NCBI RefSeq assembly: GCF_011065895.1 | Contig: NZ_JAALCR010000022.1 | Coordinates: 1 to 64,000 of the forward strand | Direction: 5' to 3' | Length of the DNA stretch: 64,000 nucleotides | Source of the DNA: Paludisphaera rhizosphaerae | GTDB lineage: Bacteria > Planctomycetota > Planctomycetia > Isosphaerales > Isosphaeraceae | Shown: piece after piece, positions 45,918 to 49,440 of the stretch | Layout of the letters: each line of letters begins with the position of its first letter | Numbering within the stretch: position 1 is the stretch's first letter | Position numbers and translations under genes: made by a program | Notes under the pieces: generated by a model | Seen by the model: the letters and a program-made list of their open reading frames with translations, nothing else | Databases searched by the model: none | Told to the model about the DNA's origin: nothing

Positions 45918-46700
45918 ATGAGCATCTTCGATCGATTCCGATTGACGGGAAAGCGCCTCTTCATCACGGGCGGCAGTCGCGGGTTGGGGCGGGAGATGGC
46001 CCTTGCGATTGCGGACGCAGGTGCGGACGTCATCCTCGTCGGCCGCGATCAAACCAGTCTGGAAAAGACGGCTGAGGACATTCGCCTCCTTGGCCGGGAA
46101 GCCTGGACCATCGCCGCCGACGTCGGCAAGCCCGAAGAATGCGAAATGGCGTGCCGGTCGGCTCTGGAACGACACGCGCCGATTGACATCCTCATCAACA
46201 ACGTGGGCGGGCGACGCGAGAACATCCCCACGGAGACGATGCCCCTCGACAAGTGGCGCGAGCTCATCGACCTGAATCTCACCAGTTGCATGCTCTGCAC
46301 GAGATGGCTTGGCGAGGCGATGATCGAGCGGGGCCAGGGCGGGCGAATCATCAATATCGCATCAATCAACGCCCTGGTCGCCGGGCGAGGCATCGCGGGG
46401 AGGCACTACGAAACGGCGAAGGGGGCGATCCTCCAATTCACCCGCGCCGTGGCGGCCGACTGGGCGCCTCACAAGATCACGGTCAACGCCATCCTGCCGG
46501 GAGGCTTCATGACGGAGCCGAACCGTCGATGGTCCGAGTCCCATCCGGAAGTGATCGAACTCCTCCGCGCCAATATCCCGGCCGGCGACCTGGGGAAACC
46601 CGAGGATCTCGGGCCTCTCGCGGTCTACCTGGCCAGCGATGCCTCACGCTACATGACCGGCGCGGCTTTGGTGATCGACGGCGGATACACGCTGTGGTGA
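45918..46700 (+). CDS. SDR-family oxidoreductase
   Basis: The 260-residue short-chain dehydrogenase/reductase has TGGSRGLG (17-24) for cofactor, NNVGG, the catalytic Ser in NIASINAL, and YETAK (Tyr163, Lys167). It ends with GAALVIDGGYTLW. The wording is closest to gluconate 5-dehydrogenase-like and 3-oxoacyl-ACP reductase-like SDRs; the substrate is not determined. ATG 45918. It is alone between the toxin-antitoxin pair and the repeat array. Confidence 0.88.
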   Translation: MSIFDRFRLTGKRLFITGGSRGLGREMALAIADAGADVILVGRDQTSLEKTAEDIRLLGREAWTIAADVGKPEECEMACRSALERHAPIDILINNVGGRRENIPTETMPLDKWRELIDLNLTSCMLCTRWLGEAMIERGQGGRIINIASINALVAGRGIAGRHYETAKGAILQFTRAVAADWAPHKITVNAILPGGFMTEPNRRWSESHPEVIELLRANIPAGDLGKPEDLGPLAVYLASDASRYMTGAALVIDGGYTLW

Positions 46701-47106
46701 GAGAGCAAGTCGACTCCGACGTCTGATCTATTCATGCCTGCATGCTCATGGGGCAGAGATGTGGCGGAAGAGCGGAGGCATGGACAGATTAGGAGGGCCT
46801 CGGGCATCGCTAGTTTGCCTGGATTGCCTGTCTTTGATGCGTGGCCAGGATCTCTGGATCTTTGATGCGTGGCCAGGATCTCTGGATCTCGCGGAGGGAG
46901 GATCTCCGTGGCCAGGATCTCGCGGAGGATCTCGCGGATCTCGGCCAGGATCTCACGTGGCCAGGACCTCGGCCAGGATCTCAATGTCCCTGGATTGCCT
47001 GTCTTTGATGCGTGGCCAGGATCTCAAGGATTCAGGATCTCAAGGATCTCGCAGGATCTCGTGCGCGTGTTCAGGATCTCGGTTTCTTTCCCCGTCTGGC
47101 CGACGA
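46701..47106. repeat. GGATCTC repeat array
   Basis: Within 46848-47086 I count 14 exact copies of GGATCTC plus one GGACCTC variant, most in AGGATCTC context and all in one orientation, with uneven spacing of 8-40 bases. Larger units overlie it: a 28-bp tandem duplication at 46832-46859 and 46860-46887, and an identical 37-bp direct repeat at 46818-46854 and 46989-47025. On the minus strand part of the array reads as a short ORF of EIL/REIL units, but this looks like a by-product. It lies directly beyond the 3' end of the TcmP gene. No gene is supported in 46701-47106. Confidence 0.85.
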
Positions 47107-48375
47107 TCATCCCCCCATTCCATAGAACAACAGCTTCTGGGGGGGGATCAGCACGAGGTCGTCGTTCCGTTGCACTCCGGCCTTCCTCTCGGTATGCCCC
47201 GAGGAATCCTTCACACGGAGGAGCCCTTCCTTGTTCAAGATGCGGATCGACTTGCGGATCATGTCGCTGGTCGCCGGAGTCTCGTTGGTGATGCGGGCGA
47301 AGATGCTCCCGAAATCGAGCCCGGCCGGAAGCTCGTAGATGCGACGCGGGAGATCTTCCAGCAAGGAGTCTTCCGTCCTCGCCTCGGCCTTGTCGTCGAA
47401 ATGGAACTCCGGGAAATAGGGCTGCCCCGTCGCGAGGACGTCCAACTCCGGATCGTACCCGAGCATCTTAAGGCCCGCGCCGCCGAAGTGGGCGACCGAG
47501 TTGTGTCGCTCCCAGTGGACAGAGGTCATCACGTCCCTCGCCCGAGGATGGCCGGAGAGGTGGAGGAGCCACAAGTCCCTGTGGGCGTCCTTGGACCGGA
47601 TGAAGAAGGGGGTGAAGAAGGCCGCGCCCGAAGCCCTGAGGACTTCCTGATGGAGTTCCAGCTGGATCAACCGGCGCCACATGGGGTCCGATTTATCGAC
47701 GGAGGAGGCCATCGCGTCCACGTCGAGGTTGGGCATGCACTTCAGCCTGCGATTCGGCCTCCCCTCGCGGAGGTAGTCGATCAGGAAGTCCGCCGCGAAG
47801 GTCAGGATGACCTCGGCGTTGGGCAATTCCCGGAAGATCGCGCGGATACGCTCGAAAGGGACTTCGTCGTACCCGCATTGATCGAGGTTGAAGATGACGC
47901 GGCCCGACCGGCTCTTTTCCTTCACGAACTTTATGATGGCGTCCGCGTGACCGGAGAAGTCCCCCTGCATGACGCGGATCCTGTCCTGGGCGATCCGGGC
48001 GTTCGGCGAGTCCGCCAGCGTCCGCCGCAACGACTCGCACGCGGACTTCTTCCGTTCGATGAAGAAGTAATCGTCCACTATTTGGAAGGGCTTCGTCCTC
48101 TCCGCATTGACAGTCACCTCGGCGTCGCGGATCGTGTCGAGCATCAGGGAAGGAGAGCCGGTCCGCAGATCTTCCCCGCCCCACCGCCTGTAAATGTTGC
48201 CCCCGGCGAAGCCGTCCACGAGGGTGAGTCGCAGCCGGTCCTGCGCCTTCCGCCGGGTCAACGTCCAGACGTACTGAAAAAGATAGGTCTGTAGGAGCCT
48301 GTGCTTCTCCAGGCTATGGGGTCGGATAACAGGGGGGCTGTTCTTGTCCTTCCAGGAATGAGACTTGCGACCCAT
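47107..48375 (-). CDS. tcmP: Three-Cys-motif partner protein TcmP-like methyltransferase
   Basis: The 422-residue protein fits the TcmP family by its N-terminal HSLEKHRLLQTYLFQY and by a methyltransferase-like core: motif I LVDGFAGGN (52-60), motif II Glu107 (FFIERKK), Asp139 (MQGDF), and a motif IV-like NLDQCGYDE (163-171). The C-terminus (about 350-420) is a winged-helix-like segment (DMIRKSIRILNKEGLLRV). SAM binding is inferred. ATG 48375 has GAGGGG five bases upstream; the longer ORF to 48600 has no family character. It is divergent from the Gp37/Gp68-like gene, its named partner family, with a 213-base shared control region. Confidence 0.83.
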   Translation of the reverse strand: MGRKSHSWKDKNSPPVIRPHSLEKHRLLQTYLFQYVWTLTRRKAQDRLRLTLVDGFAGGNIYRRWGGEDLRTGSPSLMLDTIRDAEVTVNAERTKPFQIVDDYFFIERKKSACESLRRTLADSPNARIAQDRIRVMQGDFSGHADAIIKFVKEKSRSGRVIFNLDQCGYDEVPFERIRAIFRELPNAEVILTFAADFLIDYLREGRPNRRLKCMPNLDVDAMASSVDKSDPMWRRLIQLELHQEVLRASGAAFFTPFFIRSKDAHRDLWLLHLSGHPRARDVMTSVHWERHNSVAHFGGAGLKMLGYDPELDVLATGQPYFPEFHFDDKAEARTEDSLLEDLPRRIYELPAGLDFGSIFARITNETPATSDMIRKSIRILNKEGLLRVKDSSGHTERKAGVQRNDDLVLIPPQKLLFYGMGG

Positions 48376-48588
48376 GTTGCCCCTCTTGCCCAAAATAGAC
48401 GAAGCGACTAGGCTGTCAGCGCCCTTTGTTCCAGCACACATCAAATTACCATACCCACCCTCCAGGCGAGAACATTTGCGATCGAACGTCGCGGGATGCG
48501 ATGCGGCCCTAAGGCCCTGGAACTCCGACCTTGAGCTGCATGCAGGCGATCTGCACGCCTGTTTAGAATCGTCGGAAGGGGAGATTTC

Positions 48589-49440
48589 ATGAGTGTGCAT
48601 TCAGACATAGAGTGGACGGACGCGACCTGGAATCCCGTCCGCGGCTGCACCAAGATCAGCCCCGGCTGCAAGCACTGCTACGCCGAGACGTTCGCAGAGC
48701 GGTTCCGTGGGGTCCCCAGTCATCCCTACGAGCATGGCTTCGACCTGAAACTCGTCCCCCACAAATTGGTCGAGCCTCTGACATGGCCGTCGGCGAAGAC
48801 GGTTTTCGTGAACTCGATGAGCGACCTGTTCCAGCGAAAGGTGCCGCTCCCCTACGTGGAACGAGTTTGCAAGGTCATGGAGGTCGCCGACTGGCACACA
48901 TATCAAGTGCTCACGAAGCGAGCTGAGGAGATGCGGGACGCGCTCGCCGGTCCGCTGACATTCGCAGGGCGTTTTCCGCACGTCTGGTGGGGGGTGAGCG
49001 TCGAGGATCGCAAGTACGGTCTGCCTCGGATCGACATTTTGCGAGAAACGCATGCGGCGGTCCGCTTCCTCTCCGTCGAACCGCTCCTGCAGGACTTGGG
49101 GGAGATCGACCTTCGAGAGATCGACTGGGTGATCGTCGGGGGGGAAAGCGGCCGTGGGGCTAGGCCGATGGAGGAGGGCTGGGTCCGAAGCCTACGCGAT
49201 CAATGCGAGGCTGCGGGGGTCCCGTTTTTCTTCAAGCAATGGGGAGGCGAGCGAAAGTCGAAATTGGGGAGGGAGCTTGATGGACGAACGCACGACGCGA
49301 TGCCTGAACGACTGGTGAAGCCGGCTCCAAGCCCCTCCTCCCGGGCGAGGTCGATCGAGATCGTACGCGAGTGGTCGCGAGAGTTCGTCGCCAAGGCGAG
49401 CGACAAGCTGGATCCTGCCCTTCAAACCTTGCTGTTCTGA
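48589..49440 (+). CDS. Phage Gp37/Gp68-like protein (DUF5131) with three-Cys motif
   Basis: The 283-residue protein begins with IEWTDATWNPVRGCTKISPG, giving Cys20, Cys27 and Cys30 in a CX6CX2C arrangement followed by YAE. This is the DUF5131 family, found in phages and bacteria and thought to be related to radical SAM proteins by the Cys cluster. Other conserved pieces are VFVNSMSDLFQ, QVLTKRAEEM, WWGVSVED, FLSVEPLL, WVIVGGESG and FFFKQWGG. An iron-sulfur cluster is likely, though not the canonical CX3CX2C. ATG 48589 has GGGGAG six bases upstream. Divergence from TcmP is the usual pairing of the two families. Confidence 0.86.
   Translation: MSVHSDIEWTDATWNPVRGCTKISPGCKHCYAETFAERFRGVPSHPYEHGFDLKLVPHKLVEPLTWPSAKTVFVNSMSDLFQRKVPLPYVERVCKVMEVADWHTYQVLTKRAEEMRDALAGPLTFAGRFPHVWWGVSVEDRKYGLPRIDILRETHAAVRFLSVEPLLQDLGEIDLREIDWVIVGGESGRGARPMEEGWVRSLRDQCEAAGVPFFFKQWGGERKSKLGRELDGRTHDAMPERLVKPAPSPSSRARSIEIVREWSREFVAKASDKLDPALQTLLF

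Follow-up and report, generated by a model that had tools for sequence, protein, structure and literature searches.

A dense, irregular array of one short word, GGATCTC, occupies positions 46818-47086 (plus strand) of the window, that is, of the whole 64,000-nucleotide stretch of Paludisphaera rhizosphaerae DNA analyzed here. The array is non-coding, runs in one orientation with 14 exact cores and two one-mismatch cores, and probably represents a mosaic of close direct repeats, degenerate and minisatellite-like, situated in the non-coding gap between two convergent genes. We infer that replication slippage or template switching built it, and most likely it serves no dedicated function.

Anatomy of the array and comparison with known repeat classes

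The 14 exact GGATCTC cores were all located on the plus strand within 46848-47080, starting at 46848, 46876, 46884, 46900, 46915, 46927, 46936, 46948, 46976, 47019, 47035, 47044, 47054, and 47074, and the reverse strand of the array region contained none; two near-copies of the core, GGATCTT and GGACCTC, were found at 46856 and 46964, respectively. Core-to-core spacings were 28, 8, 16, 15, 12, 9, 12, 28, 43, 16, 9, 10, and 20 bases. The core often appeared in the extended form CCAGGATCTC, with a frequently common left flank (GGCCA) and a variable right flank (T, G, C, or A), and AGGATCTC occurred 12 times in the array, at spacings of 28, 24, 15, 12, 21, 28, 43, 16, 9, 10, and 20.

Longer self-copies are superimposed on the cores. 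A perfect tandem duplication of 28 bp (46831-46889, plus strand; 2.1 copies, 100% identical) looks recent, and a 37-bp direct repeat (CCTGGATTGCCTGTCTTTGATGCGTGGCCAGGATCTC) is present as two identical plus-strand copies at 46818-46854 and 46989-47025, offset by 171 bases; the last base of each copy is also the last base of a GGATCTC core. These elements, namely the 14 same-orientation cores, the 28-bp duplication, and the 37-bp repeat 171 bases apart, had been pointed out in an earlier sequence-only reading of the window, and all were recovered. Tandem Repeats Finder (TRF) broke the array into periods of 28, 15, 21, 12, 16, and 9, of which only two pairs, of 28 and 16 bp, were clean tandems. 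When the array was parsed from left to right, 180 of its 269 bases fell into blocks of at least 8 bp that exactly repeat sequence already encountered in the array; in 300 shuffles, the copied bases averaged 11 and never exceeded 50. The copied blocks measured 28, 8, 15, 10, 8, 11, 11, 16, 37, 15, 10, and 11 bp, and blocks of 37, 15, 11, 11, 10, and 8 bp finished flush with the 3′ end of a core.

Close direct repeats have been defined as an 8-mer occurring at least four times (8n4g24) or a 6-mer occurring at least six times (6n6g24), separated by gaps no larger than 24 nt (PMC4060949). The array falls within this definition, with AGGATCTC present 12 times in runs of seven and five copies at gaps up to 24, and is a dense new example of this known repeat type: a short word is repeated at short, variable gaps, most of them ≤24 nt, although the array exceeds the minimum definition in length and density, contains internal copies of 28-37 bp, and has one gap >24 nt. 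It also resembles bacterial minisatellites and VNTR loci in its local head-to-tail copies, non-coding position, and perfect 28-bp tandem pair with degenerate neighbors; unlike those loci, however, it has no single running period, and only the 7-base core is common to its units. It was therefore not classed as a regular minisatellite or tandem repeat, given that TRF found no consistent period of one unit.

A CRISPR array, already discounted in the sequence-only reading, shares with this array the arrangement of direct repeats with intervening sequence. CRISPR repeats are constant, at ~23-40 bp, and are separated by unique, near-constant spacers, whereas here the core is 7 bp, the spacing varies irregularly from 8 to 43 bases, and the spacers are copies of each other, so that the earlier judgment stands. 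The same genome does carry a genuine CRISPR array on contig C9 (L269:13411-16700, repeat GTCGCCCCCCATGCGGGGGCGTGGATTGAAAC), which is quite unlike the GGATCTC array.

Excess over chance, uniqueness, and genomic setting

A genome-wide count of GGATCTC, proposed earlier as a check on enrichment, yielded 2,752 copies (1,394 forward and 1,358 reverse) in this GC-rich, 8.05-Mb genome, with comparable clustering at no other site. Because only about 0.05 copies were expected (0.047 per strand in 269 bp) and 14 were observed, chance is excluded as the origin of the cluster; the Poisson probability of at least 14 copies in 269 bp is about 2e-30, and dinucleotide shuffles of the array contained at most four. 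A cluster pattern of three GGATCTC words with gaps up to 30 had no second match anywhere in the genome, and a 24-bp inner unit had no other genomic occurrence, even at three mismatches. The word is thus common genome-wide, yet the array is the sole cluster of its sequence in the genome, and a genome-wide repeated element was rejected on the same uniqueness of the unit. Beyond this genome, the array unit had no match among plasmids, the exact inner unit was absent from the GTDB species genomes searched, and a search of 392 planctomycete genomes for a homologous array gave nothing but short matches at chance level. The DNA search of the phylum gave matches of only ~20-77 bp in 114 genomes, mostly to the GCGAGGATCTCGCGG stretch and with a best E of 2e-7, which chance could explain in GC-rich DNA.

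The array takes up most of a ~400-bp gap between the 3′ ends of two convergent genes, an SDR-family oxidoreductase gene (45918-46700, plus strand; stop at 46700) and tcmP, encoding a three-Cys-motif partner protein (47107-48375, minus strand; stop at 47107-47109). The TcmP assignment rests on a TIGR04474 match of 194 bits against a cut-off of 53 (NCBIfam), and the protein includes a GMT-like wHTH domain. Beyond tcmP, and divergent from it, lies its partner, a DUF5131 (Gp37/Gp68-type) gene (48589-49440, plus strand). The array had been described as lying just past the TcmP stop, and it does lie downstream of that gene; it is, however, equally downstream of the SDR gene, hence its position between two convergent genes. 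As the DUF5131 gene is on the opposite side of tcmP, the array sits at the far 3′ end of tcmP and outside the pair, and no array was found between the two partners. The tcmP/DUF5131 pair (47107-49440) matches the PADLOC candidate defence models PDC-M30 and PDC-M41, and a below-cut-off match to TIGR04471 points to a distant resemblance of the DUF5131 protein to radical SAM mobile pair protein A. The genome has another DUF5131 gene (G000:C2:311458-312216, L046), 67% identical to the one in the window, and each of the five congeners has one at a similar identity.

A region of ~8.4 kb around the array (~42.0-50.4 kb), bounded by conserved flanks, had no DNA-level match in congeners, and the same interval in two of them (L077 and L078) is only ~0.3 kb; the array therefore sits in DNA that those congeners do not share. 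The region contains DUF1501-like, YebC-like, PIN-domain, and SDR genes, the array, tcmP, and the DUF5131 gene. The congeners had no close SDR match, and their best TcmP was 26% identical; a search for an ortholog of the intergenic region found none to show copy-number variation or an ancestral short state.

No coding or RNA-level role was recovered for the array. Reading frames cross it, but a coding repeat was rejected because the spacings do not keep to multiples of three and because none of the frames gave a recognizable conserved protein. A structured RNA or riboswitch was likewise rejected, as RNA fold stability was at the level of shuffles (z-scores of -0.09 and -1.02) and Rfam offered no credible family, its one hit (mir-4436) being sub-threshold and located outside the array. 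The terminator scan found one weak terminator-like site, and on the fold, Rfam, and terminator results together an RNA or terminator function was set aside. No promoter-like site was found at the array, which faces two gene 3′ ends.

Origin of the array and alternative explanations

Of the three origins offered by the sequence-only reading, namely a slippage product, a target of the neighboring gene pair, and an insertion or recombination scar, slippage is the best supported, and the other two are improbable. The nested self-copies with a common core argue for slippage. The array would have grown as replication slippage or template switching repeatedly duplicated or removed local stretches, with the 7-base GGATCTC word acting as the microhomology where strands re-paired; a re-pairing point of this kind would have kept the core unchanged and left the intervening segments to differ in length and sequence.

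Slippage is further supported by irregular arrays elsewhere in the genome that are built on unrelated motifs. A scan for irregular arrays, covering 1.72 Mb (~21%) of this genome and 0.83 Mb of two congeners, recovered three more one-orientation arrays here, each with a different motif, all outside recognized genes and none beside TcmP: CCTTTTCG / CCCCTTTTCGCCGGCC at L055:18842-18942, GGGGCCAA / GGGGGGCCAAAAGGTGTCGCTCTTAA at L239:5322-5461, and GGGCCGTCGGTGTC / CGGGCCGTCGGTGTC at L255:9524-9716. A stretch of similar irregular repeats was also seen in another genus of the family (L018). The motifs being unrelated, this anatomy is tied to neither GGATCTC nor TcmP. No irregular array was found in the 0.83 Mb of the two congeners. 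The contrast of four arrays here with none there might indicate a strain-specific cause, namely a mutational process peculiar to the strain, or an unrecognized element, that turns arbitrary short cores into irregular arrays of one orientation; however, ~1.9 arrays would be expected in the congeners at the same rate, so that the difference is not significant, and such a cause is considered unlikely.

Slightly less probable still is a role in binding a transcription factor or chromosome-organizing protein at clustered sites (an operator, parS-like, or GATC-methylation cluster). The many exact, same-orientation copies with a GATC center in a non-coding gap suit such a cluster, and the exactness of the 14 cores beside variable spacers could reflect binding-site selection. 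Nevertheless, the array lies between two gene 3′ ends and has a promoter on neither side, the spacing is irregular, no second cluster exists in 8.05 Mb, and the 37-bp and 28-bp copies span non-core sequence, a feature explained by duplication and not by site selection. Built by slippage, the array would exemplify a short core that keeps perfect identity within a scrambled repeat cluster, with no binding-site selection needed.

The remnant of a transposon end, at which a transposase binds several direct repeats in the style of IS21, Tn7, or Mu, or a recombination scar, is a poor candidate. The ends of IS21 bear multiple direct repeats (PMC10122671), and the array, with its several same-orientation copies of a short motif, finds in them its nearest functional resemblance. 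In addition, the ~8.4-kb region lacks a DNA match in congeners, and the L055 array abuts a reading frame that, from its translation only, appears to be a truncated transposase-like one. Against this, the 14 cores far exceed the roughly two repeats of each IS21 end, and the array has neither an inverted partner end nor a second element, even though an active element would leave a second genomic copy of the unit. No transposase was found among the proteins scanned around the array, nor any terminal inverted repeat at it, and the IstB-domain hits of the genome were only marginal, at most 25 bits; an IS21-type end was rejected on these hits and on the uniqueness of the unit, and the insertion or recombination scar suggested earlier is likewise improbable.

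A yet weaker case can be made for a role of the array in the TcmP/DUF5131 pair as a candidate defence module, either as a self/non-self mark or as a site that the pair binds, cuts, or modifies. Its position directly past the tcmP stop, the winged-helix domain of TcmP, and the fit of the pair to the PADLOC candidate models speak for it. An unrelated SDR gene is equally near, however, and 2,738 GGATCTC copies lie outside the array, so the word cannot be a rare private target. A TcmP model search of the 392 planctomycete genomes gave matches in 50 genomes, and 29 other planctomycete tcmP loci were examined together with flanks of ~1.5 kb on both sides, as far as the contigs reached. None of the 29 had a clustered word beside it; the best count of any 7-mer per 270 bp was four, versus 14 here, and GGATCTC itself reached at most two per 270 bp. 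The sequence past the stop was ordinary, with no array, in both of the clearest relatives, a TcmP from Aquisphaera insulae that is 76% identical (L079 = L278) and one that is 43% identical (L080); no viral relative of TcmP was found. The array is thus absent beside related tcmP genes, an outcome that the sequence-only reading had itself named as counting against its proposal. It was accordingly not classed as a TcmP-associated element, most likely has no link to TcmP, and should be kept apart from the candidate defence module, which removes a false lead.

An assembly artefact is hardly credible: the genome is a draft of 110 contigs, but the array is well within a 121-kb contig, is shorter than a typical paired-end insert, and consists of many non-identical units, which is not the usual outcome of collapsed or chimeric assembly.

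Short-word repeats were also seen in other genera of the family. In one genome (G043), perfect head-to-tail (GGATCTC)n occurs at several contigs (e.g., L019:1-102 and L017:1498-1521); the shared word is probably a coincidence, because the sequence context differs. In another (G016), GGAGATCCCCAAAAAGGACA and AAGGTCATCGAAAGGAC repeats form an irregular cluster in non-coding DNA at L018:1490-1740.
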